From Glutamicibacter halophytocola (lineage in GTDB: Bacteria > Actinomycetota > Actinomycetes > Actinomycetales > Micrococcaceae), in NCBI RefSeq assembly GCF_001302565.1, contig NZ_CP012750.1, positions 3,596,001 to 3,660,000 on the forward strand: DNA of 64,000 nucleotides, given 5' to 3'. The notes beneath the pieces were generated by a model. That model did no database searches. It saw nothing but the letters and a program-made list of their open reading frames with translations, and was not told the origin of the DNA. Position 1 is the first letter of the stretch; every line of letters starts with the position of its first letter. This document shows, one piece after another, positions 37,908 to 55,875 of this stretch. The translations under genes and the position numbers were made by a program.

Positions 37908-37941
37908 GATGGTTCCTTGAAAAAGTGAAAAGTCGGGGATC

Positions 37942-39144: not shown

Positions 39145-39671
39145 CAGTGCCCATGTCCGCTCTGCGACGAGGATTCATCGTAGCTTTCCTTGGCCACGGC
39201 GAAATCCTTGACCGGCGCTGTGAAATCGAAGCTGCTCTCATCGGAGAATTCCAAGGTGAGAGCCACTTCATCACCGGCCTTGAGCGGTTTCTTCGGATCC
39301 ATGATCATCAGGTGGTTCGCGCCGGGTGCAAGCTCCAGCTTCCCGTGGGCTTCAATGGTGAAACCGCCCGTTTTCTCGCGCATGACCATGGCCCCGGACT
39401 CATTGGCCACGGTCTCATGCAATCCGGTATCACCCGATACCGCGCTGGAGACCTGCGTAATGGTCACCGCGTGATCCCCGGTGTTTTCGATGGTGCCGAA
39501 GGCCGAGGACATATCGTCTTGTGTTGCCTTGAGCCAGAGGTCTTTTACCTCAATGGTGGTTCCTGCCGGGGAAGGCGATGCAGCGCCTGGTTCAGGAGCG
39601 GCGCAGCCGGCAAGGAGGATCAGGGAACTCGCGCTAAGCGCGGTGGCACGAAGGCCAAATGATTTTTTCAA
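39144..39671 (-). CDS. PCu(A)C-type copper chaperone lipoprotein
   Basis: 175 residues with signal peptide and lipobox LLAGC. The domain matches periplasmic/extracytoplasmic PCu(A)C: VKDLWLKATQDDMSSAFGTIENTGDHAVTI, then the Cu(I) motif with LHETVANESGAMVMRE and ANHLMIMDPKKPLKAGDEV (H-x(n)-M-x(n)-H-x-M). The C-terminus ends in GHGH. It delivers copper, in other bacteria to the CuA centre of cytochrome oxidase. It is the first gene of the operon with DyP and PepSY genes. Confidence 0.92.
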   Translation of the reverse strand: MKKSFGLRATALSASSLILLAGCAAPEPGAASPSPAGTTIEVKDLWLKATQDDMSSAFGTIENTGDHAVTITQVSSAVSGDTGLHETVANESGAMVMREKTGGFTIEAHGKLELAPGANHLMIMDPKKPLKAGDEVALTLEFSDESSFDFTAPVKDFAVAKESYDESSSQSGHGH

Positions 39672-40735: not shown

Positions 40736-41416
40736 TCAGCCTTTCAGCGACGCGCCGCCGCAGATGGTCATCACCTGGCCGGTGATGGACTTGCCATGCT
40801 CCCCGCCCAGGAACAGCACCAGGGCGGCCACATCGGCGGGATCCACGAGCGCGCCCAGTGGCGGCGTGACCGGCGGGACGCCCGCCCTGCGCGGATCAAC
40901 CATCATCGGGGTATCAGTGGGCCCCGGCGCCACAACATTGCAGGTGATGCCACGCGGCGCCAGCTCCATGGCCCAGCTGCGCGACAGCCCGGCGAGCGCT
41001 GACTTGGTAGCGGCATATTGGCTCTTGCCAGCGACACCGCTCATGGTCCGGCTGCCAATCAAGATGATCCGGGAGCCATCCTCCATCTTCGGTGCCAGGG
41101 TGTTGAGCAGCGCCATTGGCGCCTGCACATGAACCGCGTGCATCCCCGCCAGATCCTCCGCCTTGAGCTCGCCCAATGCCCCGGTCGCCATATAGCCTGC
41201 GGCATGGACAAAAAGATCGGGCGCCGACAGCTGCTGTGCGGCTTCCTGGACCTGGCCCAGGTCTCCCAGGTCGGTGCTCCGCCAGGAGAAGCGCTCATCG
41301 GCGATGGCCGGTGCCCTGCGGCTCAGGCCCGTGACTTCATAGCCGGCTTCCAGCAGGGCGCGGGCGATCGCTTCGCCAATGCCGGAGCTGACCCCGGTGA
41401 CCAGAGCGCTAGGCAT
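40736..41416 (-). CDS. Short-chain dehydrogenase/reductase
   Basis: 226 residues from ATG 41416. The NAD(P) motif is ALVTGVSSGIGEAIARALLEAGYEV, the catalytic Ser is in ILIGSRTMSG, and Y-x-x-x-K is in SQYAATKSALAGLS. NVVAPGPTDTPM and the C-terminal GQVMTICGGASLKG are classical. Its start lies 8 bp inside the end of the sialidase-like gene, so it is translationally coupled as the last gene of the nine-gene island operon. It probably oxidises a sugar or acid-sugar hydroxyl; substrate inferred from neighbours only. Confidence 0.9.
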   Translation of the reverse strand: MPSALVTGVSSGIGEAIARALLEAGYEVTGLSRRAPAIADERFSWRSTDLGDLGQVQEAAQQLSAPDLFVHAAGYMATGALGELKAEDLAGMHAVHVQAPMALLNTLAPKMEDGSRIILIGSRTMSGVAGKSQYAATKSALAGLSRSWAMELAPRGITCNVVAPGPTDTPMMVDPRRAGVPPVTPPLGALVDPADVAALVLFLGGEHGKSITGQVMTICGGASLKG

Positions 41417-42644
41417 GATCGCTTGCCTCCGGCGCGCTGACCCACGAAGGGTCGATGCGCACGTACTTGATGGCCTGGCGGAAATAGGTGTAGGCCAGGT
41501 GCAGGGCCCCATCCTGGCCTTCGTGGATGGAAGGATAGGAGAATTCCCGGTTCAGCCCCTCGCGGGAATTATTGGAAAGGCAGTACCCGTCCCCCACTTC
41601 GAGGTTCCTTCGTGCTGGCCAGCTTCTGCCCTGATCCGATGAGATCGCCACGGTCAGCGGCGCGCGGGGCGTGCCCCAGAAGGCCTTTTGCACCCCGGGT
41701 TCCCCGGTGGCCACCGGTTCGAACACCACCGGGCCATCGACGCTGGAATCCAATCCCTCATCGTCGATCTCGTCGTAGAGCGACAGCCGGCGTTCGGTCT
41801 GCTCAGTGGCCTGGGAGTGGTTGTAGATCAAGGCCAAGCGGCCATCATTCATGGAGACGAACTGGATGGATGAATTGTTATTCGGCAATTCGGTGGCTTC
41901 CGGCACGCTCCACGTCAGCCCGCCGTCCTCGGAACGCGAGGCATAGATCCAGTCGGCCCAGCGGCTGCGATACAGCGCGAGCAGGCTGCCGTCGGCCAGC
42001 GCCGCGACATTCATGTGCACGCAGCCGGTGGAACCCTCGATAATCTGCTCGGTCCATGTGGCTCCGCCATCGGTGGAGACCATCAGTGCGGAGTCGTCGA
42101 AGTCCCCCACCCATTTTTGCCCTGGCACGGTAGCGCAGCGGAAGACCGGAACATATAGCCGTTCGCCGACCTGCACCGGTGGCTGGCGCACGAAGACCCC
42201 GCCGTGGTCGGTGGCGGCAAAGAGGGTTTCGGGGTCGGACCAGGTGCTTCCGTGGTCGCTGGAGATGCGGCGGCGCACCTCGGAGGTGTCCTGGTTTCCC
42301 GCGTGCTGGGCCGTGTACAGCAGCCAGAGTTCCTCACCGTGGCGGTACAGGATCGGGTTCTGCTCGGAACGGGTCGAGTCGCTGGACAGCTGCTGTGCCG
42401 GCGACCATTTTTCCGCCCAACGCCCCTCGGGCAGACGCTGCAGGGTGGAGAAGTAGATGCTGATATCCGCCACCCCTTCCTGTGTTCCGCCGAACCAGAC
42501 GCAGCCCAGATCCCCGTTGCCCAGGGTCATCAGGTTGGCTGCGTGGGATTGCACCGTGGGTGCCGGCAGGTAGGCGTAGGCCAGCGGCCCATCCTCGTGG
42601 ATCTGCCCGTCGGGGTTGATGGTGGAAAAATCGGTCAACGACAT
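41409..42644 (-). CDS. BNR/sialidase-fold protein without signal peptide
   Basis: 411 residues with at least four Asp-box repeats: SSDHGSTWSD, STDGGATWTE, SEDGGLTWSV and SSDQGRSWPA. This gives a six-bladed sialidase-like propeller. N-terminal HAANLMTLGNGDLGCVWFGGTQEG and C-terminal EFSYPSIHEGQDGALHLAYTYFRQAIKYVRI match the exo-alpha-sialidase-like (BNR_2) group, many of which are not sialidases. There is no signal peptide, so it acts inside the cell on an imported compound. It may be a glycosidase, lyase or isomerase-like enzyme; the reaction is unknown. The ATG has AAGGAATC upstream. It is coupled to the SDR gene. Confidence 0.85.
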   Translation of the reverse strand: MSLTDFSTINPDGQIHEDGPLAYAYLPAPTVQSHAANLMTLGNGDLGCVWFGGTQEGVADISIYFSTLQRLPEGRWAEKWSPAQQLSSDSTRSEQNPILYRHGEELWLLYTAQHAGNQDTSEVRRRISSDHGSTWSDPETLFAATDHGGVFVRQPPVQVGERLYVPVFRCATVPGQKWVGDFDDSALMVSTDGGATWTEQIIEGSTGCVHMNVAALADGSLLALYRSRWADWIYASRSEDGGLTWSVPEATELPNNNSSIQFVSMNDGRLALIYNHSQATEQTERRLSLYDEIDDEGLDSSVDGPVVFEPVATGEPGVQKAFWGTPRAPLTVAISSDQGRSWPARRNLEVGDGYCLSNNSREGLNREFSYPSIHEGQDGALHLAYTYFRQAIKYVRIDPSWVSAPEASDHA

Positions 42645-42672
42645 TGTCTGATTCCTTGCTGTCTATTCGGTG

Positions 42673-43443
42673 CTAGGAGCGGGCCTGCTGCAGGTGGGCC
42701 GCGGCCGTTGCTTCCAGGTGGGTCAGGTCCGAGGCCACCGTGGCGAAGGTATATCCTTCGCCGAGGCGCTGCTGGGCCAGCTCTCCGTTGGCGTTGTGGA
42801 TGCCGGCGGCAATGCCAGCCTGCTGTGCTGCCGCGCTCACCCGCTTGAGCGCGGCCTCGAATTCCTCCTTGATCGCCGGATCCCCGGGGAATGCGGCGCC
42901 GATGGCCAGGGCCAGGTCGCTGGGCCCGACGTACAGCCCGTCCAGGCCCTGGACGGCGGCGATTTCTTCGACGTTCTCCAACCCGCCCGGAGTCTCGATC
43001 ATGGCGAAGACCATGGTGGTGGCATCCGATTCCGCTGGTACCGGGCCAACGCGCAGGGCCGAGCGCATGGGTCCGTAGGAGCGGATGCCATGCGGCGGGT
43101 ACTTGGCGTATTTGACCGCGTCGGCGGCGTCTTGCGCGTTGTCGACCAGCGGCACGATGACTGCCACGGCGCCAGCGTCCAGGGCCTTGCCAATGGCGGT
43201 GGCGTTATTGGCTTCCACGCGGACAACACCGGCGGCCTGGCCGGAGGCGTCGATGGCCATCAGCCCGGTGAGCATTCCGTTGTAGCCGATCAGGCCGTGC
43301 TGCGCGTCGAGGGCAACGTAGTCGTAGCCCAGGCGTGCGATGCGTTCGGTGGATACCGGCGAATCGAGCACCACCCAGTACCCGACGGCTGGTTCGCGGT
43401 CACGGATCTTGCGGGCGAATTCGGTGGCAACTGCTGAGGTCAT
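42673..43443 (-). CDS. HpcH/HpaI-family class II aldolase
   Basis: 256 residues, the usual size for HpaI/GarL/RhmA-type pyruvate aldolases. The N-terminal strand ends in YDYVALDAQHGLIGYNGM, with catalytic His in D-A-Q-H-G (usually D-x-E-H-G). Metal ligands are Glu in AMIETPGGLENVEEIAAV and Asp in YVGPSDLALAIG. These enzymes split 2-keto-3-deoxy acids to pyruvate and an aldehyde, so it may deliver pyruvate plus a short aldehyde from the island's substrate. The aldehyde could be reduced by the adjacent aldo/keto reductase; this is inference. Confidence 0.9.
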   Translation of the reverse strand: MTSAVATEFARKIRDREPAVGYWVVLDSPVSTERIARLGYDYVALDAQHGLIGYNGMLTGLMAIDASGQAAGVVRVEANNATAIGKALDAGAVAVIVPLVDNAQDAADAVKYAKYPPHGIRSYGPMRSALRVGPVPAESDATTMVFAMIETPGGLENVEEIAAVQGLDGLYVGPSDLALAIGAAFPGDPAIKEEFEAALKRVSAAAQQAGIAAGIHNANGELAQQRLGEGYTFATVASDLTHLEATAAAHLQQARS

Positions 43444-43464
43444 GGCGTTGGTGTCTCTTTCTTG

Positions 43465-44421
43465 TTAACGGTTGTAGGCAGGCATCGGGCCGTGCAGCGA
43501 GGCGGTGGCCGCTGCGGCTGCCTCCGCCAGGTTCTGCTCCAATGGCCCCTTGGCGATGGCGGCAATGTTGGATTCGAGCTGGCTTGCCTTGGATCCGCCA
43601 AGCAGCAGCGAGTCGACGCCCTGGTGGTAGGCCAGCCAGCGCAGGGACAGCTCGATCAGGCTGATGCCGGCGTCCTCGGCCAGTGCGGTGAGCGCTTCAA
43701 TGCCCTTGAAGAGGTCTTCGTCCCAGTAGCGCTCGGTGTACATGCTGGCCAGGCGGGAGCTGCCGAAGCGCCCTTCCTGCGGCTGTTGCGCGAAGCTATG
43801 GCGCCCGGTGAGCAGTCCGCCGCCGAGCGGGTTGTACACCATGGTCTGCACCCCGCTGGCTTGGGCGAAGGGCAGGTATTCGGTTTCGATGCGCCGCGCT
43901 ACCAGGTTGTACAGCTGCTGGGCCACCACAGGTGGCGGCGCGCCGACCGACTCGGCCACATGCCTTGCCTGCGCAATCTGCCAGGCGGCGAAGTTGGAAA
44001 CGCCCAGGGACAGGATCTTGCCTTCCTGGTGCAGCTTCGCGACTTCGCCCAAGGTCGCTTCCAGCGAGGTGGCGTAGTCGGGCTGGTGCAGGTAGAACAG
44101 GTCCAGCCGGTCGGTGTTCAGCCGCCGCAGCGAGGCCTCCACGCTTCGGCGCAATGCCGCTGGGGACAAGGGCGAATCCTCGCCGGCATCCGCATGGGGC
44201 ATTCCGGCCTTGGACGCCAGGAATACCGAGTCGCGCTTGCCTTCCAGCAAGGTGGCCAGCAGCTCTTCGGTGGCCCCGCCGACATAGGCGTTGGCGGTAT
44301 CGATATGGGTGATTCCCGCGTCCAGTGCCGTATTGAGCATCTGCTCGCTGGCTTGGGCATCGGCGGTGTCGCCGAAGGTCATGGTTCCCAGGACCAATGC
44401 TGCCGGGGTGTTCTTGGGCAT
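43465..44421 (-). CDS. Aldo/keto reductase
   Basis: 318 residues, a TIM-barrel AKR with the catalytic tetrad Asp and Tyr in THIDTANAYVGG, Lys in FLASKAG and His in LFYLHQPD. The NADPH end LLLGGSKASQLESNIAAIAKGPL is present. The ATG at 44421 has AAGGAAGC upstream. It lies between the ATPase gene and the aldolase gene in one operon and probably reduces an aldehyde or ketose intermediate. Confidence 0.92.
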   Translation of the reverse strand: MPKNTPAALVLGTMTFGDTADAQASEQMLNTALDAGITHIDTANAYVGGATEELLATLLEGKRDSVFLASKAGMPHADAGEDSPLSPAALRRSVEASLRRLNTDRLDLFYLHQPDYATSLEATLGEVAKLHQEGKILSLGVSNFAAWQIAQARHVAESVGAPPPVVAQQLYNLVARRIETEYLPFAQASGVQTMVYNPLGGGLLTGRHSFAQQPQEGRFGSSRLASMYTERYWDEDLFKGIEALTALAEDAGISLIELSLRWLAYHQGVDSLLLGGSKASQLESNIAAIAKGPLEQNLAEAAAAATASLHGPMPAYNR

Positions 44422-44453
44422 TGTCTTTGCTTCCTTGTTCGTCTCTTGCGGTT

Positions 44454-45278
44454 CTAGCTGGCCAGTCCGGCCAGGATGTGGCGCGGCTTCACGCCTTCCA
44501 TCTGGCTCGGGTCCAGGGCCGCGCGGCGCAGCTTGCGGGTGTACGGCTGGGCCGGCGAGGTGAGCACCTGCTCGGTGCTGCCCAGTTCGACCAGCTTTCC
44601 CTTCTGCATCACCATGACCTGATCGCTGATTTCCTGCACCACGCCCAGGTTGTGTGAAATGAACACATAGGAGATCCCGGTGTCTTCCTGGATCTCGGCG
44701 AGCAGCTTGAGCACCTGTGCCTGCACCGAGACATCCAGCGCGCTGGTCGCCTCGTCACAGACCAGGAGCTCCGGCTTGGAAGCCAGTGCCCGGGCGATGC
44801 CGATGCGCTGGCGCTGGCCGCCGGAGAATTCATTGGCCCGCTTATCCAGTGCTCCCTCGGGCAGGCCCACGCGATCGAGCAGCCTCAAGGCCTCCTTGCG
44901 GCGTTCGGCAGGCGTCCCGATTTTCTGGATTTTCAGCGGCTCGGTGATGATCTGCTCGGCGCTGTGGCTGGGGTCCAGTGAGCCGTAGGGGTCTTGGAAG
45001 ACCATCTGGAATTTGCGGCGCAAGGGGCGCAGCTGCTTTTCATTCAGGGCCACCAGGTCGGTTCCATCCAGCAGGATTTGCCCCTTGGCCGGCTTGAGCA
45101 GGCGCATGATGGATTTGGCGATGGTTGACTTTCCGCATCCTGATTCACCGACCACGGCCAAGGTCGTGCCGCGTTCCAGGTCAAAGGAAACGTCGTCCAC
45201 CGCGCGGAAGATTCCGTTGTGCGTGTGGTACTCGACGCTCAGGTTCTTCACCGAGAGGAACGGTGCTTGCTGGTTCAT
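44454..45278 (-). CDS. Peptide-type ABC importer ATPase, OppF/DppF
   Basis: 274 residues. It has Walker A GESGCGKST, Q-loop MVFQDPYGSLDP, signature FSGGQRQRIGIARALASKPE, Walker B LLVCDEATSALDVSVQAQ and H-loop FISHNLG. The string PYGSLDP and the C-terminal oligopeptide-transporter extension (TSPAQPYTRKLRRAALDP) mark the OppF type. Its start overlaps the OppD stop (ATGA). Confidence 0.95.
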   Translation of the reverse strand: MNQQAPFLSVKNLSVEYHTHNGIFRAVDDVSFDLERGTTLAVVGESGCGKSTIAKSIMRLLKPAKGQILLDGTDLVALNEKQLRPLRRKFQMVFQDPYGSLDPSHSAEQIITEPLKIQKIGTPAERRKEALRLLDRVGLPEGALDKRANEFSGGQRQRIGIARALASKPELLVCDEATSALDVSVQAQVLKLLAEIQEDTGISYVFISHNLGVVQEISDQVMVMQKGKLVELGSTEQVLTSPAQPYTRKLRRAALDPSQMEGVKPRHILAGLAS

Positions 45279-46114
45279 GATGCTCCCTTTGGTGCCATTG
45301 GCGTTTCGTCCCAGGTTCCCAAGCGCGGAACCGCGGCGAGCAGCTTGCGGGTGTAGTCCTGTTCTGGTGCGTCGACAATCTGGGCGGCGGGGCCGGACTC
45401 GACGAACTTCCCCGAGCTCATCACATGGATTGTGTCGGAAACCAGGCGCGCAACGCCAATATCGTGCGTAATCATCAGTATCGAGATCCCGCTGCGCTGC
45501 TGCAGTTCCAGCAGCAGGTCGAGGATCCCGGCCTGCACCGTGACGTCCAGGGCGCTGGTGGGCTCATCGGCGACCAGCAGTTCTGGTTCGCTGGCCAGCG
45601 CAATGGCAATGAGGACGCGCTGCAGCATGCCGCCGGAGAGCTGATGCGGGAATTTCTTGAGTTGTTCCTCAACCAGTGGGATGCGCACCTGCTCGAGCAG
45701 CTGCACGGCCTTGCTGTGCAGCTCCTGCTTGCCGGTAATGCGTCCGGCCACCTTGATCGCCTCGCGCAGTTGCGAGCCGATCGTGGCTACGGGATTCAGC
45801 GCGGTCATCGGGTCCTGCGGGATCAATGCCAGGCCCCGTCCGCGGAACTTGGCGATGGCCTTGGGGTTGGCCAGCACGTCCTCGCCCTTGATCCTCACCT
45901 GGCCGGACAAGGCAGCAAGCCCGCGGGGCAACAGCTGGAGCAGCCCCATGGCGGTCGTGGATTTGCCGGAACCCGATTCGCCAATGATGGTGACGGTTTC
46001 CCCGTGGCCGATGCGGAAGTTGACGTTTTTGACCGCCTTGAACACGCCGTTGTCGGTCATCAGTTCCACGCTGAAGTCGCTGACTTCCAGGACTGCGGTG
46101 TTTTGCTCGCTCAT
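45275..46114 (-). CDS. Peptide-type ABC importer ATPase, OppD/DppD
   Basis: 279 residues from ATG 46114. It has Walker A GESGSGKSTTAMGLLQLL, Q-loop LIPQDPMTALNPV, signature LSGGMLQRVLIAIALASEPE, Walker B LLVADEPTSALDVTVQAG and H-loop MITHDIGVARLVSD. The C-terminal DAPEQDYTRKLLAAVPRLG is the OppD-type tail. It is translationally coupled to the permease upstream (TGATG) and to OppF downstream. Confidence 0.95.
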   Translation of the reverse strand: MSEQNTAVLEVSDFSVELMTDNGVFKAVKNVNFRIGHGETVTIIGESGSGKSTTAMGLLQLLPRGLAALSGQVRIKGEDVLANPKAIAKFRGRGLALIPQDPMTALNPVATIGSQLREAIKVAGRITGKQELHSKAVQLLEQVRIPLVEEQLKKFPHQLSGGMLQRVLIAIALASEPELLVADEPTSALDVTVQAGILDLLLELQQRSGISILMITHDIGVARLVSDTIHVMSSGKFVESGPAAQIVDAPEQDYTRKLLAAVPRLGTWDETPMAPKGAS

Positions 46115-47040
46115 CACTTGCCTTCCTTCTTAGAGGTGCGGCGCAGGTTTCCATCGCGCAGGGCATCGCCGAGCAGATTGACCCCGACCACCAGAACGAC
46201 GATGAACAGGCCTGGCAGCGTCACCATCCACCACGAGGTGGTGATGTAGTCCTGGCCGTCGGAGATCAGCCGGCCCCAGGTGGAGAAGGGGCGCTGCGGT
46301 CCGGCGCCGAGGAAGGACAATGCGCTTTCCAGGAGCACCGCTTGGGCCAGCAACAGCAAGATCACCAGGCTGGCCTGCTTGAAGACATTGGGGATCACGT
46401 GCTTGGCGAGAATCTGCACTTTGGGAAGGCCCAGGGTCTTGGCCGCATCCACATAGGGCCTTTCGCGTTCCACGAGCACCAGGGATCGGGTCAGGCGCGC
46501 AACCTCGGGCCACTGGGCGATGGCGATGACACCGGTGATCACCGGGATGGATGGCCCGAAGAGGGCAACGACCAGCAGCAGCATCATCAGCAGCGGCAGG
46601 GACAGCTGGGCTTCGAGCACGCGGGAGATGATCACGTCGGCCCATTTGCCGTAGAACCCGGCAATGGATCCGAGGATCACTCCGACAGCCCCTGAAACGA
46701 CGACCGCCAGCACGCCGATCATCAGCGAGGTCTGGCCTCCGAAGAGCACCCGGGAGAGCAGGTCGCGGCCCAGCTGGTCGGTGCCGAAGAGGTGCCCGTC
46801 GATCAACGGGGCCAAACGCCGGGCGCCGAGGTCCTGCATATTCGGGTCTGCGATCGGCAGCAGGTTGGCCAATGCGATCGGCAGGACCACCAGCAAGGTC
46901 AGGATGGTGCCCAGCCACAGCTTGATGCGGGTTGACCGGGCACGCCGGGCGGCCGCCGATTTCTTCAGCAGCTGCTTGGTCACTGCCGAGCCGCGGACCG
47001 GATCCGGAGCTTGCGCGAGGTTGCGGGTTGTGGTGCTCAT
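46114..47040 (-). CDS. Peptide-type ABC importer permease, OppC/DppC
   Basis: 308 residues with a cytoplasmic N-terminus then helices. The OppC N-terminal domain contains DLGARRLAPLIDGHLFGTDQLGRDLLSRVLFGGQTSLMIGV. The EAA loop EARLTRSL...DAAKTLGLPKVQILAKHVIPN and the C-terminal DALRDGNLRR are typical. It overlaps OppB by four bases. Confidence 0.94.
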   Translation of the reverse strand: MSTTTRNLAQAPDPVRGSAVTKQLLKKSAAARRARSTRIKLWLGTILTLLVVLPIALANLLPIADPNMQDLGARRLAPLIDGHLFGTDQLGRDLLSRVLFGGQTSLMIGVLAVVVSGAVGVILGSIAGFYGKWADVIISRVLEAQLSLPLLMMLLLVVALFGPSIPVITGVIAIAQWPEVARLTRSLVLVERERPYVDAAKTLGLPKVQILAKHVIPNVFKQASLVILLLLAQAVLLESALSFLGAGPQRPFSTWGRLISDGQDYITTSWWMVTLPGLFIVVLVVGVNLLGDALRDGNLRRTSKKEGK

Positions 47041-47972
47041 GCCGAAGCTGCCTTTCCGAGGCGGACCCGTGGGTCCAGCAGTGGGTAGGCCAGATCGATC
47101 AGCAGCTGGACCGCGACGGCCAGCAGGGCGGTGATCAGCACGGTGGCCTGGATCAAGGGGTAATCGCGGGTTTCCAAGGCCCGGACGATCAGCGAGCCCA
47201 CGCCGGGCCAGCCGAAGACAACTTCCACGACCACCACGCCGTTGAGCATCGCCGCGAAGCGGGTGCCCAGGGCGGTGAAGACGGGAATTCCCGCATTGCC
47301 CAGCGCATAGCGCCAGGTCAGCACCCGTTCGCTGACGCCGCGGGAACGGGCGATGCTCAGATAGGGGGCGTTGAAATTGGTGACCATTTCACGCTTGACC
47401 ATGCGCGAGACCAGGGCGATCTGCAGGATCGCGACGGTGATGGTCGGCAGGACCAGCCCGCCCCAGGTCGTGAAGCCGGAAGCCGGGAACAGCGGGATGA
47501 TCACCGAGAACCCGGTGAGCAGCATGATGCCGGTCCAGAAGTCGGGCATGGATTGCCCGGCGATGGTCAGCACGTTCACGCCGAGTTCCGCATCGGTATC
47601 GGTGCGGCGGGCCATCCACATTCCCAGCGGAATGGCGACCAGCGCGGCCAGCAGGATGGAGCTGGTGGCCAGGGTCAGCGTGTAGGGCAGCCGGTCCATC
47701 ACCACCTGCACGGCGGGGGCCTGGAAGGAATAGGACTGCCCCAGATGGCCGGTGAACAGCTGTCCGATGAAAATCACGTATTGCTGGAGCAGCGGCTTGT
47801 CCAAGCCGAACTGCTCGCGCACGGCGGCCAGCTGCTCATTGGTGGCCAGCGGCCCGGCGAACGAGGCAGCCGGGTCGCCCGGTGCCATGCGGATGAGCAG
47901 GAAGACTACTGAAACGGTAAGGAATACCGTGAGCAGCCCCTGCCCGATGCGCTTGGGAAGATAGGTCAGCAC
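47037..47972 (-). CDS. Peptide-type ABC importer permease, OppB/DppB
   Basis: 311 residues, six helices. The N-terminal YLPKRIGQGLLTVFLTVSVVFLLIRMAPGDPAASFAG is the OppB signature, followed by the EAA region YLSIARSRGVSERVLTWRYALGNAGIPV. It begins 3 bp after the binding-protein stop. Confidence 0.94.
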   Translation of the reverse strand: MLTYLPKRIGQGLLTVFLTVSVVFLLIRMAPGDPAASFAGPLATNEQLAAVREQFGLDKPLLQQYVIFIGQLFTGHLGQSYSFQAPAVQVVMDRLPYTLTLATSSILLAALVAIPLGMWMARRTDTDAELGVNVLTIAGQSMPDFWTGIMLLTGFSVIIPLFPASGFTTWGGLVLPTITVAILQIALVSRMVKREMVTNFNAPYLSIARSRGVSERVLTWRYALGNAGIPVFTALGTRFAAMLNGVVVVEVVFGWPGVGSLIVRALETRDYPLIQATVLITALLAVAVQLLIDLAYPLLDPRVRLGKAASA

Positions 47973-47975
47973 GGC

Positions 47976-49550
47976 TCAGCTCTCCAATCCCACACGGGCC
48001 AGCGGGTAGGCGTTGGCGGCGGATAGTTCCAGGTTTTGCACGCGGTTGCGGCGGGCAAGAATTGACTTGGGGGTAAAGGCCCACGCGCAGGGCCAGGTGT
48101 CCCAGGCTGCCTGCTGGGCGACCTTGAGGTACTCGGTGCGCTTGGCCTCGTCGACTTCCGAGGCCGCGCGGGCAATTTTGCGCTCAACGCTGTTGTTGAC
48201 GTAGCCCTGGTAGGTGTCGCGGGTCTTTTCCTTTTCCGCGGTGCCTGCGTACATGCCCTGCAGCATCGTGATGGCCAGCCCGGTAGGACTGGAGAAGCCA
48301 TTGCCCAGCAGGTCCCAGTCCCCTTCCTTGCCTTGGCGCCACTGCAGGATATTTCCTCCGGGTTCAAACTGCTGGAGCTCGGTTTTCACTCCGATGTCCC
48401 CGAACATCTGCACCAGGGCCTCCATGATGGCGGTATCCGAGGGGAATTCTCCGGTCTCCCAGATGATCTTGAGCTTCAGGTTCTCCACGCCGAAATCCGA
48501 CAGCAGGGATTTCGCCTTGCCCGGGTCGTAAACGTAGTCCCCGGTCTTGGCAAAGCCGAACAGGCTGGTCGGAGTCACGCCCTGCGCCTGTTCCACGGTG
48601 TCGATCAGGACATCGTGCACCAGGGCCTTGCCGTCGATGGCGAAGGACAGCGCTTCGCGGACTTTGGGATCGGCGAGCGGATGGGACTTCGGCTTGCGGA
48701 AGTTGTAGAAGATCTGGTTCAAGCGCAGCGAGGAGGCCGTGTCGATGGTGACGCCGGGCAGGCCCTGGAGCTGTTCCATGGAATTGGGCGAGATGGAATC
48801 GATGACATCAACTTCGCCGCTGCGCAAGGCGATCACGCGGGAGGATTCTTCGGGCAGGAAGCGGACGTTGACCTGGCGGATTGGCGCAGGTTCGCCCCAG
48901 TACTTCTCATTGCGCACCAGCGTGTAGGTCCCGGCGCCGCGGTCATAGGACTGGACAACATAGGGCCCGGTGCCCACACCGGTCTGCAGCTCTTCTGCCT
49001 TGTTATCCTCGGCAGGGGAAATCAGGATCAGCGCCATCAGCGCATCCAGGATCGGGATGGGCCCCTTGGAGTCCAAATGGAATGTCCGCTCATCGACTTC
49101 GGTGACCGAGGGGAATTCGGGGAAGAAGCTGGCGACGAAGGAGCCTTGCACCTTGGCGTACATTTCCAGCGCGGTGGCCACATCCTTCGGCTTGACCGGG
49201 CGCCCGTCCGAATAGGTGATTCCCTGGCGCAGCTTGACGGTCCAGCGTGTTGGCGATGCCATCACCATTGACTCGGCGAGCACCGGAATCGGTGCGATGT
49301 CCGGGCCGATCGCGGTCAGGCCCTCGCGGACCGCTCGCTGCACGGTGACGGCTGCATCGAACTGGTTCAGCTTGTTATCCAGCGATACCAAGGAACGGTT
49401 CAGGGCCAGGGTCAGCGTGTCCTTGCCCGGCAGCCCGGTGGGTCCTGCGCACGCGGTAGCGCTCATCCCCACTGCCGCAAAGAGCCCGGCGGCTCCGGCC
49501 AGCTGCAGCAGCTGGCGCCGCGACATCCCGGGCGAGAATCGTGCGGTCAT
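47976..49550 (-). CDS. Peptide-type ABC importer binding lipoprotein (SBP_bac_5, Tat)
   Basis: 524 residues from ATG 49550 with GGGAGGTC upstream. The signal holds a Tat motif MSRRQLLQLAGAAGLFAAVG and then a lipobox ending S-A-T-A-C, so it is probably exported folded and lipid-anchored. The mature protein is a family 5 binding protein: GLTAIGPDIAPIPVLAESMVMASPTRWTVKLRQGITYSDGRPVKPKDV near the start and GTGPYVVQSYDRGAGTYTLVRNEKYWG in the middle. Members bind peptides, nickel, opines or oligosaccharides; given the sugar-acid enzymes downstream, a non-peptide ligand is likely. First gene of the nine-gene operon. Confidence 0.93.
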   Translation of the reverse strand: MTARFSPGMSRRQLLQLAGAAGLFAAVGMSATACAGPTGLPGKDTLTLALNRSLVSLDNKLNQFDAAVTVQRAVREGLTAIGPDIAPIPVLAESMVMASPTRWTVKLRQGITYSDGRPVKPKDVATALEMYAKVQGSFVASFFPEFPSVTEVDERTFHLDSKGPIPILDALMALILISPAEDNKAEELQTGVGTGPYVVQSYDRGAGTYTLVRNEKYWGEPAPIRQVNVRFLPEESSRVIALRSGEVDVIDSISPNSMEQLQGLPGVTIDTASSLRLNQIFYNFRKPKSHPLADPKVREALSFAIDGKALVHDVLIDTVEQAQGVTPTSLFGFAKTGDYVYDPGKAKSLLSDFGVENLKLKIIWETGEFPSDTAIMEALVQMFGDIGVKTELQQFEPGGNILQWRQGKEGDWDLLGNGFSSPTGLAITMLQGMYAGTAEKEKTRDTYQGYVNNSVERKIARAASEVDEAKRTEYLKVAQQAAWDTWPCAWAFTPKSILARRNRVQNLELSAANAYPLARVGLES

Positions 49551-49647
49551 CTTCGACCTCCCAATCGACTTTCTGGAGCGCTTTGCCCCATTGCTTGCAG
49601 GGCCATCCACTCGCTGTGATGTGTATCTCAAGGACACTTTGTCACGA

Positions 49648-49687
49648 TTGCGCGAAATGCGCAATAGGCATAGCGCATTTCGCGCAA
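49648..49687. promoter_or_regulatory. Large nested palindrome between island operons
   Basis: 15-bp perfect arms (49648-49662 and 49673-49687, TTGCGCGAAATGCGC and complement) flank a 10-nt spacer. Allowing two mismatches, the symmetry extends to about 21 bp per arm. Each arm continues into a smaller dyad such as TTGCGC-N5-GCGCAA (49648-49664). It lies 98 bp from the binding-protein start and 80 bp from the kinase start, and is the likely operator of the DeoR regulator at 52066 or of another regulator. Confidence 0.7.
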
Positions 49688-49766
49688 CTGTGTCATGATG
49701 GCTCCAGAAGCACACGCTCGACCGGAGCCATCCGGAACCCGATTCAAGGAGGTGACAAGCATCCAC

Positions 49767-51998
49767 ATGGCCACGAACCCAATGGAAGTCCTGATTCTCG
49801 CCGATGATTTTTCCGGCGCCTGCGAAGTATCCTTGCCTTGGAGCGACCAGGGATTTGCGACCCGGATTTCCCTTGACCTCGCTGCGGGATCTTCAAACAA
49901 GTCCCGCCCCGTCACCGTCCTGGACACCAATAGCCGCTACCTGGACCCCGCCAAGGCCTATCGGCGCATCCAGGATCTTTGCCGCCGGCCCTCGCAAGAC
50001 GCGCTGGTCTTCAAGAAGATCGATTCGCTGTGGCGCGGCAACCTCAACGCAGAGCTCTCGGCCCTGGCCGATAGCGGCTACCGGCTCATCATTGCCGGAG
50101 CACTGCCCCACCTGGAGCGGACCGTTGACAACGGGCGCCCGCTGGTTGCCGGCCAGCCGCTGGCTTCCACGGATGCCTGGCAGGTTGAAGCAGGACAAGC
50201 CCCCGAATCCATCACCGACCTGCTCGGTGGCCTCGAATCCGCAACGCTGGCCCGGCCCAGCACCGATGGATCGTTCCAAGAACACCTGGCCGCCGCGCTC
50301 GGTTCGGCACCCATCGCCATCGTCGACTGCTCAACCGAGGCGGACCTGCACTCCATCGCCGAATCCTGGCTCGGACTGCGCGCCGCGCACCCGGAGCTGT
50401 TCGCCCGCAGCATCCTGGTTGGCACCGGAGCCCTGAACGCGGCCCTGGCCAGCGCCCTGGCGGCGCGTCACGGCACAGCCGGCCAGGCCGCGCACCAGGA
50501 TCCTGCCGCGTCCGATGCTCCGGCTCGCCACCTTCTGGGTGTCGTCGGCTCGGCCTCGGGCCCCTCCGGGCAGCAGCTTGAACTCGCCCAGAACCACGGC
50601 ATCCCCTGTGCCGAAACAACCGGCGAGCTGCCGGCGCCCAAGCCAGGGGAACCAGTGATTCTGCGCGCAGCGCGCAACGGGGCGGAACCTTCAGCAGTGC
50701 TCCACCAGCTGCGCAACCAGGCAGCCGCCTTTCTTGCAGCGCACCCGGACTCGGATCTTTTCCTGACCGGCGGTGAAACAGCACGCGCCGTCCTCGACGA
50801 CCTCGGTGTCACCTCGCTGGCCCCGCGCCAGCAGCTGGAACCCGGAGTGGTCATCTGCCAAGCCCCCGACGGGCGCCTGGTTGGCACCAAGCCCGGTTCA
50901 TTCGGCAGCCCCGGCATCCTTTCCAAAGCCTTTTCCACCCTGCGCGATCTGCGCGCCATTCTTCCCCAGGAGCCAGAATCCATGAGCACCATTTCCCCAG
51001 ATTCCCGTCCATTCATCGCCGTCACCATGGGTGACGGATCAGGAGTCGGTCCCGAGGTCACCGTCGGCGCCCTGCTGGATGCCAACGCCTACAGCATCAG
51101 CCGGCCCATCGTCATTGGCGACTGCCACCGGCTGTCCCTGGGCGCGAAGGCCCTGGGCCTCAAGGCCGACATCGTGGAAATCTCCGACGTCGCAGAAGCC
51201 CAGTTTGTTCCCGGCCGCATCAACGTCATCGACCCCCACCTGCTGTCTGCGGACCTTGAATGGGGCAAGATTTCCGGCGAAGCTGGCAACGCGGCCTACC
51301 ATTACATCCGCATCGCCTGCGAACTGGCGATGCGCGGCGAGGTCCAGGGCATCTGCACCGCACCTCTGAACAAGGCCGCACTGCACGAAGCCGGCCACAT
51401 CTACCCCGGGCACACCGAATTGCTCGCCCACTTCATGGGTGTCGATGAAGTATCGATGATGCTTTCAACGCCCAAGGTCAAGGTCATCCACGTGACCACC
51501 CATATCGGATTGATCGATGCCATCAAGAAAATCGAACCCGGGCTGGTTGAGCGCACGGTCCGCCGCGGCCATGAGGCACTGGTCCGCGCAGGCAATCCCA
51601 CCCCGAAGATCGGGGTCTGCGCCATCAACCCGCACGCCGGCGAGAACGGCCTGTTCGGTTATGGCGAAGAGGAAGAAAAGATCATCCCTGCGCTCGAAAA
51701 GCTGCAGGCCGATGGGATCAACGCCATCGGCCCGCTGCCCGCCGATACCGCGTTCTTCCTGGCGGGCCGGGGCGACTACGACCTGATCGTCGCCATGTAC
51801 CACGACCAGGGCCATGGCCCGGTGAAGGTTCTGGGCATCGAAGCTGGCGTGAACATCACCGTCGGCCTGCCGGTTATCCGCACCTCGGTGGACCACGGCA
51901 CCGCGTTTGATATTGCCGGCACCGGCGTTGTCGAGGTGGGCAGCATGATCGAGGCCCTGCAGCAGTCGGTGAATTTGGCGACGGCCCCGGCCGAGTAA
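49767..51998 (+). CDS. Fusion of four-carbon acid sugar kinase (DtnK) and PdxA2-type dehydrogenase
   Basis: 743 residues from ATG 49767, preceded by a near-perfect AAGGAGGTGA. Residues 1-405 form a DUF1537/four-carbon-acid-sugar kinase: LILADDFSGACEVSLP, VFKKIDSLWRGNLNAEL, FLTGGETARAVLDDLGV, and the nucleotide-site end GTKPGSFGSPGILSKAF. Residues 406-743 form a complete PdxA-family enzyme: VTMGDGSGVGPEV, metal histidines in YPGHTELLAHF, INPHAGENG and MYHDQGHGPVK, and FDIAGTGVVEVGSM. Separate DtnK and PdxA2 phosphorylate D-threonate or D-erythronate and then oxidatively decarboxylate the 4-phosphate to dihydroxyacetone phosphate. Here both steps are on one chain. Residue 406 is a Met with AGGAG 9 nt upstream, so a free PdxA2 may also be made. 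Confidence 0.9.
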   Translation: MATNPMEVLILADDFSGACEVSLPWSDQGFATRISLDLAAGSSNKSRPVTVLDTNSRYLDPAKAYRRIQDLCRRPSQDALVFKKIDSLWRGNLNAELSALADSGYRLIIAGALPHLERTVDNGRPLVAGQPLASTDAWQVEAGQAPESITDLLGGLESATLARPSTDGSFQEHLAAALGSAPIAIVDCSTEADLHSIAESWLGLRAAHPELFARSILVGTGALNAALASALAARHGTAGQAAHQDPAASDAPARHLLGVVGSASGPSGQQLELAQNHGIPCAETTGELPAPKPGEPVILRAARNGAEPSAVLHQLRNQAAAFLAAHPDSDLFLTGGETARAVLDDLGVTSLAPRQQLEPGVVICQAPDGRLVGTKPGSFGSPGILSKAFSTLRDLRAILPQEPESMSTISPDSRPFIAVTMGDGSGVGPEVTVGALLDANAYSISRPIVIGDCHRLSLGAKALGLKADIVEISDVAEAQFVPGRINVIDPHLLSADLEWGKISGEAGNAAYHYIRIACELAMRGEVQGICTAPLNKAALHEAGHIYPGHTELLAHFMGVDEVSMMLSTPKVKVIHVTTHIGLIDAIKKIEPGLVERTVRRGHEALVRAGNPTPKIGVCAINPHAGENGLFGYGEEEEKIIPALEKLQADGINAIGPLPADTAFFLAGRGDYDLIVAMYHDQGHGPVKVLGIEAGVNITVGLPVIRTSVDHGTAFDIAGTGVVEVGSMIEALQQSVNLATAPAE
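50968..50984 (+). promoter_or_regulatory. Internal ribosome site at the kinase-PdxA2 junction
   Basis: AGGAG (50968-50972) lies 9 nt before an in-frame ATG (50982) exactly where PdxA homology begins. It looks like the former start of a separate pdxA2 gene, retained after the upstream stop was lost, and may still allow internal initiation of a 338-residue protein. Confidence 0.55.
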
Positions 51999-52065
51999 GC
52001 GAACCGGGCCAATGCCGATACACTCGGCGTAGTAGACCCACCGAATCAACTGGGGAAGGAGTCCC

Positions 52066-52833
52066 ATGTCGACCAGTGCCAAGGTGCGCCAAGGGCAGAT
52101 CCTGGAACTGGCCAATACCAGCGGGTTGGCCAGCGTAGAGGAACTCTCCGAACGATTCGGCGTCACCGCTTCAACGATCCGCCGCGATCTTTCCCGGCTC
52201 ACCGGAGAAGGAAAGATTGCGCGCACCTACGGCGGGGCGATGCCCTTGACCGCACCGGTGATCGAGTCCACGTTCCGGCAGCGGAACATGGAGAACGCGG
52301 TGGCGAAGAGCGCCATCGGGCGCAAGGCGCGCTCGCTGGTGTCCGAGGGGCAAACCATCCTGCTGGATTCCGGTTCCACAGTTGCCTCCTTGGCCCATGA
52401 GCTGCGTGACGCCAATGAACTCACCGTGGCGACAACCTCGCTGGTGGTGGTCGAGGAACTGGCCGAGGCAGAGTCGGTACATGTTGAGTGCCTCGGTGGC
52501 ACCTTGCGCCACCGCAGCGCCGCCTTTGTGGGCCCGCTGGCAGAATACTGCCTGGAGCGGATGAGTTTTGATTCCGTTTTCCTCGGCGCTGATGCCGTCA
52601 CGCCCGATGCCATCTGCGAGGCCGACCTCGTGCAGACCCGGCTCAAGGAAAAGATGGCCTCGCGGGCGCAGCGCGTGTTTGTGCTGGCCGACAGCTCCAA
52701 GCTCAACCAGCATCCTTTCCATGCCTGGGCCAGATTGCCCGAAGGCTGGACGCTGATCACCGACGCACAGGCCAGCGAGAACCAGCTTGCGCCATTCAAG
52801 GACGCGAACGTGGAGATTATTCTCGCGGGCTGA
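52066..52833 (+). CDS. DeoR family transcriptional regulator
   Basis: 255 residues with GGGGAAGGAG upstream of ATG 52066. The N-terminal HTH is ILELANTSGLASVEELSERFGVTASTIRRDLSRLTGEGKIARTYGGAM, the DeoR signature. The C-terminal sensor has ILLDSGSTVASLAHEL and VFLGADAVTPDAICEADLVQTRLKEKMASRAQRVFVLADSSKL, where D-S-G-S-T and ADSSK are effector-binding loops for sugar phosphates. It sits 67 bp after the fusion gene and probably represses both island arms, released by a phosphorylated intermediate. Confidence 0.93.
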   Translation: MSTSAKVRQGQILELANTSGLASVEELSERFGVTASTIRRDLSRLTGEGKIARTYGGAMPLTAPVIESTFRQRNMENAVAKSAIGRKARSLVSEGQTILLDSGSTVASLAHELRDANELTVATTSLVVVEELAEAESVHVECLGGTLRHRSAAFVGPLAEYCLERMSFDSVFLGADAVTPDAICEADLVQTRLKEKMASRAQRVFVLADSSKLNQHPFHAWARLPEGWTLITDAQASENQLAPFKDANVEIILAG

Positions 52834-53261: not shown

Positions 53262-53293
53262 AACGCGCGGCACCACGAGATGTAGGAATGACG

Positions 53294-54406
53294 ATGAACA
53301 TACAAGCCGAATGGATGCGCGGAGGAACCAGCAAGTGCTGGGTCTTCGAATCCGAGCACCTGGACGAAACGGCCACCAGCCTCGATGAGCTGCTCCCGAA
53401 AGTATTCGGCAGCCCCGATTCACGACAAATCGACGGCGTTGGCGGAGCCACCTCAACCACCAGCAAGGCAGTCATTCTGCACCGTTCCAGCGACGCCGAA
53501 ATCGATGTGGAGTTCACCTTCGCCCAGGTAGGCATCGAAGAAGCCACCGTGGATTGGGGAAGCAACTGCGGCAACTGCTCCGCAGTTGTCGGGCTCTACG
53601 CCATCGAGCAAGGATGGATCACCCCGTCCGGGGATACCACCCGAGTCACCACCCGCAACACCAATACCGGGCAGATCATCATCCAGCGCGTCGATACGCC
53701 AGACGGGGCACTGCCCATCGTTCCCCAGGCACAGATGCCCGGTGTAGCAACGGCCGGCTACAAGGTCGGGCTCGGATTCCGCGACCCTGCCGGCAAGACC
53801 ACCGGCAGCCTCTTGCCCACCTCGAACCCAACAGACATCCTGCTTGCCGCGGGCCGCGCGTGGACCGCATCCCTGGTGGATGCCGGAGCACCCGTAGTCA
53901 TACTTCGCGCAGAGGAACTCGGTCTCGACACCGCAAACTATGATTCATGGATGGCCGCCGTCGACTCGCAACTGATCGCCTTGGACCAGGTGCGCCGCGA
54001 AGCAGCGGTGCGCATGGGCCTGGCCGCGTCTCCTGAGCAGGCTGCCCGCGCCATCCCGAAACTTGCCATCGCCGCGGCACCGCAGGATGAAGACAGCGAT
54101 GCCAGCGTCATGATGCTCTCCATGGGCAAGCCCCACCCGGCATTGGCCATCACCGGCAGCATCGCGCTGACCCTCGGCGCACAGACCCCGGGCACCATAT
54201 TGGGCGAGATCACCGGCGGCGCGCCGCGCGCCACGCTGCGCCTGCGCACCCCCGCCGGCGTCATCGAAACCTGGAGCGAAAAACGCGAGGGGTCCATGTA
54301 CGTCGGAGTGGACCGCACCGCCCGCTCCATCGCCAGCTCCACCATCCACCTCCCCGAGTCCCTCGGCAGCGTTGCCGAAACCGACCTAGCAAGCGCAAGC
54401 CGCTGA
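53294..54406 (+). CDS. PrpF-family isomerase
   Basis: 370 residues from ATG 53294, which has AGGA six bases upstream; ATG 53288 is too close to it. The diaminopimelate-epimerase-like PrpF family is marked by AEWMRGGTSKCWVFESEHL and IDGVGGATSTTSKAVIL, and by the catalytic cysteine block WGSNCGNCSAVVGLYAIEQGW. Members isomerise methylaconitate, oxalomesaconate or related unsaturated tricarboxylates by a proton shift. The MatC-type carrier 11 bp downstream suggests the substrate is an imported di- or tricarboxylate; no AcnD or PrpC gene is present. Confidence 0.9.
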   Translation: MNIQAEWMRGGTSKCWVFESEHLDETATSLDELLPKVFGSPDSRQIDGVGGATSTTSKAVILHRSSDAEIDVEFTFAQVGIEEATVDWGSNCGNCSAVVGLYAIEQGWITPSGDTTRVTTRNTNTGQIIIQRVDTPDGALPIVPQAQMPGVATAGYKVGLGFRDPAGKTTGSLLPTSNPTDILLAAGRAWTASLVDAGAPVVILRAEELGLDTANYDSWMAAVDSQLIALDQVRREAAVRMGLAASPEQAARAIPKLAIAAAPQDEDSDASVMMLSMGKPHPALAITGSIALTLGAQTPGTILGEITGGAPRATLRLRTPAGVIETWSEKREGSMYVGVDRTARSIASSTIHLPESLGSVAETDLASASR

Positions 54407-54417
54407 GGAGCCAGACC

Positions 54418-55875
54418 ATGACTAATACAGGGTTCAAGGCTGCACCCCCAGCCGAACAAGAAGCCATCGCTGTCGGCACCGTCGATCCTCGGCGCCAAAA
54501 CCGGCGCACCAAGCGCAACCTGCTGATCGTTGCCGCGGTGGCCTTCATCGCGGTGCTCATCGCCATGGTGGCTTCTCCAGCGCTCTCCAGCGCGGAGCCT
54601 TCCGGCACCAGCGCCTCGCTGACCACCGAACAGGTCATCCCGCTCGTTGTCCTGGTGCTGATGTTCATCATCGCCACCAAATGGCCGGTCAACATCGGCG
54701 TGATGGGCCTGGTGGCATCCTTCGGCATCGGCTACTTCATGCTGGGCATGGATGACAAGGAAATCCTCGCGGACTTCCCGGCCAGCATCGTGCTGACCAT
54801 CATCGGCGTCACCTACTTCTTCTCCATGGCACAGCACAACGGCACCATCGATATCATCGTGCGCAACTGCGTCCGCGCAGTTCGCGGCAAAACCATGCTG
54901 CTTCCCTGGGTTTTCTTCCTGGTCGCCGCGGCATTGACCTCGCTGGGCACCTTCTCCCCTGCCGCCGTCGCCTTGCTGGCACCGGCCGCCATCGGATTTG
55001 CCTACGAATCGCGCATTCATCCATTGCTGATGGGCGCCTTCATCATCAACGGTTCCCATGCTGGAGGATTCTCCCCGCTGTCCGTCTCGGGCGTCCTGGT
55101 TCATGACATCGCCATGGAAAATGGCTTCCCGGTTTCGGCCAACGCCTTGTTTGCCGCCAGTTTCGCCATCAACCTGATCCTGTCGATCCTGACCGTGATC
55201 GTCTTCGCCGTGATGGGCAAGCTGCGCACCAGCGCCGGCGAGGGCTACACGGAAGTCGAGGAGATCCGCTCCACCCGTCCGCAAGGACAGCAGATCTACA
55301 CGCTGGTGCTGATTGGCGTCATGCTCTTCTGCGCCCTGGTGTTGCGCCTGCCCATCGGCTTTGTCGCCTTGAGCGCCGGCTTGCTGCTGGCCCTGTTGAA
55401 CATCAAGGACCAGCAGAAGTTTGTTGCCGGCATTTCCTGGTCCACCGTCTTGCTGGTGGCCGGAATGATCACCTATGTCTCGCTGCTGACCCACATCGGC
55501 GTGATCGACACCCTGGCCCACATGGCCCTGGCCCTGGGCGCTCCGATCTTGATCGCCTTGGTGCTGTGCTACGTGATCGGCATCGGATCCGCTTTCGCCT
55601 CATCCACCGCCCTGCTCGCCGCATTCATCCCGCTGGCCGGGCCGCTGCTGGCCGTCAGCTCGCTGAGCGTCTCCGGCACCGTGGCAGCAATTGCCATCTC
55701 CGCAACCGTGGTTGATGTTTCCCCCTTCTCCACCGCTGGCGCACTGGTGGTGGCTAACGTGAGGGAAAGCGATCGGACCCGAACCTACAAGCAGCTGATG
55801 ATGTACGCAGGTGCCGTGGTTCTGATTGCACCGGCACTGTCCTGGTTGCTGCTGGTGCCAACCGGCATCATGTAA
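54418..55875 (+). CDS. MatC-type dicarboxylate carrier (ion transporter superfamily)
   Basis: A 485-residue membrane protein with about 12 helices. It resembles the dicarboxylate carrier MatC/SLC13-like group: LTTEQVIPLVVLVLMFIIATKWPVNIGVMGLVASFGIG, then SLGTFSPAAVALLAPAAIGFAYESRIHPLLMGAFIINGSHAGGFSPLSVSGVL, and SAFASSTALLAAFIPLAGPLL with VVDVSPFSTAGALVVAN near the end. The ATG has GAGGAGCC upstream. It probably imports the dicarboxylate or tricarboxylate acted on by PrpF. Confidence 0.85.
   Translation: MTNTGFKAAPPAEQEAIAVGTVDPRRQNRRTKRNLLIVAAVAFIAVLIAMVASPALSSAEPSGTSASLTTEQVIPLVVLVLMFIIATKWPVNIGVMGLVASFGIGYFMLGMDDKEILADFPASIVLTIIGVTYFFSMAQHNGTIDIIVRNCVRAVRGKTMLLPWVFFLVAAALTSLGTFSPAAVALLAPAAIGFAYESRIHPLLMGAFIINGSHAGGFSPLSVSGVLVHDIAMENGFPVSANALFAASFAINLILSILTVIVFAVMGKLRTSAGEGYTEVEEIRSTRPQGQQIYTLVLIGVMLFCALVLRLPIGFVALSAGLLLALLNIKDQQKFVAGISWSTVLLVAGMITYVSLLTHIGVIDTLAHMALALGAPILIALVLCYVIGIGSAFASSTALLAAFIPLAGPLLAVSSLSVSGTVAAIAISATVVDVSPFSTAGALVVANVRESDRTRTYKQLMMYAGAVVLIAPALSWLLLVPTGIM

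Follow-up and report, generated by a model that had tools for sequence, protein, structure and literature searches.

The 64,000-nucleotide stretch of the Glutamicibacter halophytocola genome analysed here (contig NZ_CP012750.1, positions 3,596,001 to 3,660,000 of the forward strand; hereafter the window) carries at 40736..52833 a divergent island of eleven genes that joins an importer to a putative sugar acid pathway. Nine genes lie on the minus strand. Nearest to the divergent promoter are those for a family 5 solute-binding protein (SBP_bac_5; 47976..49550, start ATG 49526 or 49550; a lipoprotein by eye), two BPD_transp_1 ABC permeases (permease 1 at 47037..47972 and permease 2 at 46114..47040) and two Opp/Dpp-type ABC ATPases (ATPase 1 at 45275..46117, start GTG 46117 or ATG 46114, and ATPase 2 at 44454..45278). 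They are followed by an aldo-keto reductase (AKR; 43465..44421), proposed to reduce a four-carbon aldehyde acid, a GarL/HpaI-like pyruvate aldolase of the HpcH/HpaI family (42673..43443), a BNR_2 protein with a divergent GH33 sialidase fold (41409..42644), which is the signature gene of the set, and an SDR family oxidoreductase (40736..41416). On the plus strand, a four-carbon acid-sugar kinase (SBD_N/NBD_C, DUF1537) fused to a PdxA-family dehydrogenase (49767..51998) precedes a DeoR-family regulator (52066..52833).

All eleven genes of the first-pass annotation are present, on the strands it gave. The starts of three were corrected: the SDR (ATG 41416, where homology begins, giving 226 aa), the kinase-PdxA fusion (ATG 49767, behind AGGAGG) and the binding protein. 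Neighbouring reading frames all overlap by at most 8 bp or are separated by a few bases; the 8-bp case is BNR with SDR, and adjoining importer genes share at most 4 bp or leave a 3-bp gap.

The divergent promoter contains an operator, an inverted pair of 15-bp arms (TTGCGCGAAATGCGC) with a 10-bp spacer (49648..49687). These arms are the only two exact copies in the whole genome, which has no match with one mismatch and 28 with two; a reversed control pattern gives 9 matches in all. Half-sites with at most two mismatches occur in 54 of 59 distinct divergent intergenic regions (63 before duplicate removal), including those with a metabolite:H+ symporter (MHS), vs 32 of 1180 windows drawn at random from those loci, a control that could include the operator itself. 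Two counts weigh against the half-site as a marker. It is not rare at this tolerance (30 in the genome vs 9 for the reversed control), and its five matches in the window were equalled by 5 of 100 shuffles. The strength of the operator is in its exact paired arms and in their conservation. The DeoR protein presumably binds it, and the regulon would be confined to this island. That the island is one regulon is almost certain.

Conservation of the set and exchange of its parts

The gene set is conserved within the family. The neighbourhood comparison suggested in the first-pass annotation, with the BNR protein as query, was run against 295 genomes of the same family and supports one functional unit. 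A match was found in 25 genomes, the window's own included, from 8 of 32 genera, and surroundings were fetched for the 24 others. All 23 intact family loci retain the AKR, HpaI, BNR, SDR, kinase-PdxA and DeoR genes. Among them, kinase-PdxA identity is 49-50% in L041, L042 and L045, and the kinase part is merely 36-38% identical in L047-L049. The ABC importer is present in 18 of the 23, and the other five have an MHS symporter of the MFS beside kinase-PdxA (family assigned by profile scan for the copy in L048).

The absence of the ABC importer from those five loci is the one point favouring a reading of the importer and enzyme blocks as unrelated, separately regulated neighbours, the outcome that the first-pass annotation had set against its single catabolic unit. 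The same five loci carry a symporter gene beside kinase-PdxA, and the divergent promoter that serves both arms has a conserved operator. Checked by sequence, the separate-blocks reading is highly improbable. Because linkage is conserved along with the operator, the importer and enzyme genes can be treated as one unit.

The nearest named relatives of the window's BNR protein are Glutamicibacter proteins, and its own genome encodes a single BNR_2 protein. Only 3 of 396 genomes in a wider phylum sample carry the set (including the window's own, and one outside the family), and its distribution is therefore patchy. The one locus of the 24 that is not intact (L052, genome G023, from the same genus) is a decaying cluster, with BNR matches in pieces interrupted by stops; importer and kinase were not found on its stretch.

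Beyond the family, the set is seen in Actinobacteria, Proteobacteria and Firmicutes. One genome per species was scanned, and the best 80 of 147 BNR relatives were kept as named loci, some from genomes shared with the family set; parts were counted at identity thresholds fixed in the script. Among these loci are representatives of Streptomyces, Rhodococcoides, Terrabacter, Azospirillum, Acetobacteraceae, Pantoea, Serratia, Kosakonia, Comamonas, Bacillus and Lysinibacillus. An SDR is present in 73 of the 80 and a kinase or PdxA in 66. An aldolase is found in 61 (HpaI in 40, DapA-type in 21, never both) and a reductase in 66 (AKR in 45, iron alcohol dehydrogenase, Fe-ADH, in 21, never both). The two choices are paired: 39 loci combine HpaI with AKR and 20 combine DapA with Fe-ADH, and a single mixed locus (L130) has DapA with AKR. 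Importers vary similarly. Of the 72 loci with one, 44 have an ABC permease, 26 an SSS and 4 an MHS symporter, two loci having two kinds; none of these three was detected in the remaining 8. YhcH is encoded in 7 of the 80. Recurrence in all 23 intact family loci and in most of the 80 named loci indicates that the gene set is more than a chance association.

Nineteen of the 80 loci lack an aldolase on the stretch, some through a contig end. For 11 of these it was sought elsewhere in the genome. All four such Pantoea genomes encode a DapA elsewhere at 73-77% identity and all five Streptomyces genomes an HpaI at 57-63%; Bacillus swezeyi (L117) and an Acetobacteraceae genome (L102) have weaker DapA relatives alone (39-40%).

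These separately encoded aldolases point to a second cluster type. That of the four Pantoea genomes is accompanied by kinase, PdxA, Fe-ADH and DeoR genes, with BNR and SDR missing. In the two such loci that were read, L154 and L156, D-2-hydroxyacid dehydrogenase and MFS genes follow (families assigned for L154, whose MFS belongs to the galactonate-transporter group). The second loci of Streptomyces place HpaI with PdxA and AKR (L158, L159) or with DeoR (L160-L163). Aldolase, reductase, kinase and PdxA thus look like a module with two front ends, either BNR or a hydroxyacid dehydrogenase. In L160, from Streptomyces sparsogenes, HpaI and DeoR adjoin genes that resemble rhamnosidases by eye.

Three further arrangements were observed. 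Six Azospirillum loci (L101, L104, L106, L107, L108, L113) have a fumarylacetoacetate-hydrolase family gene between BNR and SDR, perhaps for a further step. Five Pantoea loci (L116, L120, L122, L129, L133) have a signal-less GH28 gene (polygalacturonase-like, by eye) and a tartrate/malate dehydrogenase-like gene near SSS, BNR and SDR. In Caballeronia (L196, 6091-8397), a single 2307-bp gene matches the whole kinase-PdxA fusion of the window (49767-51998); either repeated origin or transfer of the fusion may account for this.

BNR relatives are also encoded on 300 plasmid records, including 128 from Rhizobium and 78 from Sinorhizobium, all at less than 60% identity to the window's protein. Six annotated Rhizobiales clusters chosen from this plasmid list (L198, L200-L203, L205) and the unannotated cluster of Sinorhizobium meliloti 1021 (L204) were read. 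By tblastn, all seven encode an Opp-like ABC importer, a DapA relative (24-43% identical to Enterobacterial DapA), BNR, Fe-ADH, PdxA and a kinase relative. None of the seven has an SDR match of at least 45 bits on the stretch, and the SDR is therefore dispensable.

In Rhizobium johnstonii 3841, counting genes from rmrA (pRL90059) and from pRL90085, a CUT2 gene, would put pRL90101, which encodes the PepT transporter, inside the BNR cluster. From its position on pSymB and gene order, SMb20144 might be the solute-binding component of the BNR cluster in Sinorhizobium. PMC2848018, citing Mauchline et al. 2006, assigns SMb20144 to the transport of "organic acids/alcohols". Searches for these tags in PMC3454389 and PMC12239276 found none.

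Next to the island, a PrpF isomerase and a MatC/CitMHS dicarboxylate carrier are encoded beyond DeoR (53288-55875). They were rejected as members, being linked in only 2 of the 23 intact family loci. On the other side, genes for a PepSY-TM protein, a DyP-type peroxidase and a copper chaperone PCuAC lie in a row on the minus strand (36462-39671).

The divergent sialidase-fold protein

The BNR protein has a predicted six-bladed, GH33-like sialidase fold; the structural similarity lists (Foldseek, VIA) comprise the best 50 matches, and families outside these are possible. We found no signal peptide by eye, in agreement with the first-pass annotation. Residue conservation was read from the 52 of 81 sequences that were aligned. 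Y370, R226 and R327 are invariant, and they align by sequence profile, rather than by coordinates, to positions that we take to be the Tyr nucleophile and the second and third Arg of the sialidase triad. The Glu partner of the nucleophile is replaced by an invariant H210 (HMMER alignment with NanB). The first triad Arg, of the YRIP motif, is missing: its place falls in the H34-N37 region by structural ranges and at Q95 by profile. The profile alignment with true sialidases slips by one blade at the N-terminus, and for this reason the acid/base Asp was not placed. His34 and many Arg and Asn residues are also invariant.

BNR therefore resembles GH33 sialidases and KDNases in its fold, its Tyr and two Arg positions, and differs from them in the change of Glu to His, the loss of the first Arg, the lack of a signal peptide and its membership of an aldolase pathway. 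Proteins of the BNR type are probably misnamed as sialidases in databases.

These residues bear on two sialidase-like readings. BNR could be a genuine cytoplasmic glycosidase that acts on ketosides of 3-deoxy-D-lyxo-2-heptulosaric acid (Dha) or of 3-deoxy-D-manno-oct-2-ulosonic acid (Kdo), with the importer taking up a small oligosaccharide. The invariant His210 in place of the catalytic Glu and the lost first Arg argue against this, as do the SSS and MFS symporters that replace the ABC importer, and we consider a glycosidase distinctly improbable. Utilisation of sialic acid (Neu5Ac) would accommodate the fold, the YhcH and DapA-type aldolase of relatives and the similar importer kinds. Sialic acid importers include ABC, SSS and MFS types according to part of PMC10017367, and an excerpt of PMC8141875 states that YhcH in sialic acid operons provides the aldolase with the open sugar. 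The likeness to nan operons covers importer kinds, a DapA-type aldolase and, in Enterobacteria, YhcH. The present set lacks an amino-sugar branch, its final enzymes are a four-carbon acid kinase and PdxA, no gene among the 11 in the window matches an N-acetylmannosamine or N-acetylglucosamine enzyme, and BNR has lost two sialidase catalytic positions. The YhcH of one relative (L123) scores 99.2 vs 160 for the anomerase model, and the DapA-type enzyme of another (L125) is below the NanA cut-offs. Neu5Ac catabolism was rejected on gene content and BNR residues, and retains only a very slight probability.

Proposed route and candidate substrate

The four-carbon end of the set resembles the D-threonate pathway, in which a kinase, DtnK, and PdxA2 were reportedly described by Zhang and colleagues in 2016. 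The likeness lies in the DUF1537 kinase, the PdxA-type enzyme and the end product, dihydroxyacetone phosphate. The difference is that kinase and PdxA, fused in the window, are here joined to BNR, an SDR, a pyruvate aldolase and an aldehyde reductase, which would make D-threonate an intermediate. The window's PdxA domain scores 287-294 bits to solved D-threonate 4-phosphate dehydrogenase or PdxA "2" entries and about 190 to PdxA1 entries. A scan of relatives with curated models covered one Kosakonia kinase and one Serratia PdxA. The kinase (L126) passes the D-threonate kinase cut-off (550.7 bits vs 450) and the PdxA (L105) that of D-threonate 4-phosphate dehydrogenase (675.5 vs 583), which is also the public record name of the Pantoea ananatis enzyme. 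A role in vitamin B6 synthesis was rejected for the window's PdxA because the genome has PdxS and no PdxJ was found in it.

The aldolase step can be narrowed by exchange. HpaI aldolases are metal-dependent and DapA aldolases form a Schiff base, two unrelated families that share pyruvate chemistry; their exchange in the set makes a pyruvate-releasing cleavage the probable reaction. Positions that we take to be catalytic are conserved in the alignments of both. In HpaI these are H49, R75, E150 and D176, conserved in at least 97% of 42 aligned rows and presumably the catalytic His and Arg and the metal-binding Glu and Asp. Arg140 of DapA is conserved in all 20 aligned rows (one cluster; the diverged relatives from Rhizobiales, L078 and L082 were left out). 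It occupies the position at which DHDPS binds the aldehyde partner by its carboxylate, and its conservation agrees with a carboxylate-bearing aldehyde. The window's aldolase is below the curated GarL/HpaI cut-offs (148.5 vs 393, 147.1 vs 368.8 and 139.9 vs 406.75).

Worked backwards on paper, D-threonate would derive from OHC-CHOH-CHOH-COOH, and addition of pyruvate gives HOOC-CO-CH2-CHOH-CHOH-CHOH-COOH, a 3-deoxy-2-heptulosarate and thus a seven-carbon diacid. Dha has this structure in the D-lyxo configuration. In Fischer projection its C5 hydroxyl is left and its C6 right; with the carboxylate turned up these become C2 left and C3 right, the configuration of D-threonate. Dha is a side-chain sugar of rhamnogalacturonan II, as stated in PMC12282258, PMC6353982 and PMC7939467. 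Uptake of a free 2-ulosonic acid is indicated by the SSS and MFS carriers that replace the ABC importer, and by YhcH.

We propose the following route. The ABC importer would bring the sugar acid into the cell, and BNR, as a divergent sialidase-fold enzyme, would make or free the 2-keto-3-deoxy acid in its open form, assisted by the SDR in those loci that have one. HpaI would cleave this acid to pyruvate and 2,3-dihydroxy-4-oxobutanoate, which AKR would reduce to D-threonate. The kinase domain would form D-threonate 4-phosphate, and the PdxA domain would oxidise and decarboxylate it to dihydroxyacetone phosphate and CO2. DeoR would repress both arms from the single operator. The galactarate/glucarate pathway is similar in plan: its GarL aldolase yields pyruvate and a semialdehyde acid, which is then reduced by tartronate semialdehyde reductase and phosphorylated by glycerate kinase. 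The present route would be one carbon longer and end in a PdxA-type oxidative decarboxylation, with BNR in place of the enolase-type dehydratase.

Our confidence differs between the parts of this route. A backbone from aldolase and reductase through threonate to dihydroxyacetone phosphate is likely. The reading as a whole, a single divergent regulon whose linear pathway breaks down an acidic 3-deoxy-2-keto sugar acid or its precursor, has about an even chance. Dha is the best candidate substrate, a tentative choice that falls somewhat short of an even chance.

Several observations weigh against the route. The window's own kinase (102 bits vs 450) and PdxA (325 vs 583) fall below the D-threonate cut-offs, the PdxA passing the general pdxA model (340.6 vs 290), and the best solved relative of the PdxA domain, 4jqp (458.8 bits), is labelled plain PdxA. 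The split between HpaI/AKR and DapA/Fe-ADH largely tracks phylogeny, so that the loci represent few exchange events and not 80 independent ones, the mixed L130 notwithstanding. The second cluster type contains the same module without BNR, so that the module can serve another substrate. Against the sialic acid protein SatA the binding protein scores 81 bits, no better than against nickel- or glutathione-type proteins. The weakest link is that import of free Dha would leave unexplained why BNR and SDR are needed.

Alternatively, BNR would dehydrate an aldaric or other sugar acid to the 2-keto-3-deoxy acid by a lyase-type beta-elimination, with the same backbone downstream and Dha as an intermediate rather than a nutrient. 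Invariant His34, His210 and Tyr370, together with the many Arg and Asn residues, could serve acid/base chemistry; the set has no other dehydratase; BNR is retained where the SDR is absent; and the second cluster type includes an MFS of the galactonate-transporter group (L154). Nevertheless, YhcH beside BNR in Enterobacteria better fits an imported cyclic 2-ulosonic acid, and we know of no dehydratase with a sialidase fold. A dehydratase is unlikely, albeit the strongest of the competing readings. A pectin-lyase type reading, in which BNR makes an unsaturated uronate that the SDR reduces, was set aside, since it would leave the four-carbon module without explanation and the set can do without the SDR.

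The proposed route from imported acid to dihydroxyacetone phosphate keeps most of what the first-pass annotation had envisaged. The single catabolic unit is upheld by linkage and the conserved operator, and uptake of an acid sugar, a pyruvate-forming aldolase and a kinase-PdxA ending at dihydroxyacetone phosphate all appear probable. Two of its claims need amendment. A four-carbon acid does seem to be involved, but it probably follows directly from the aldolase step, through reduction of the product by AKR or the enzyme replacing it, rather than on a side branch. Of the imported "glycoside or acid sugar", the free sugar acid is favoured, and a glycoside is less likely in view of the SSS and MFS symporters that replace the ABC importer.

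The annotation had known of no pathway with this exact set, and our limited search of openly licensed full text likewise found no paper describing the gene set or pathway. Nor did that literature yield a breakdown route for Dha, including in those passages of PMC6353982, PMC12540250, PMC7939467 and PMC12282258 that concern Dha or L-threonate. The island offers a specific route, open to testing, for a sugar acid of plant cell walls for which we found no described bacterial fate, as well as a reason for kinase-PdxA, aldolase and aldehyde reductase to travel together, and it locates the set on rhizobial plasmids. It also draws attention to proteins that are often annotated as sialidases, with relatives in 300 plasmid records, and that lack sialidase catalytic residues in the 52 aligned members. 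It is possible, if doubtful, that this is the first catabolic pathway for Dha, and that its signature enzyme would represent a new catalytic family on the sialidase fold, labelled "exo-alpha-sialidase" in many genomes of plant and soil bacteria.

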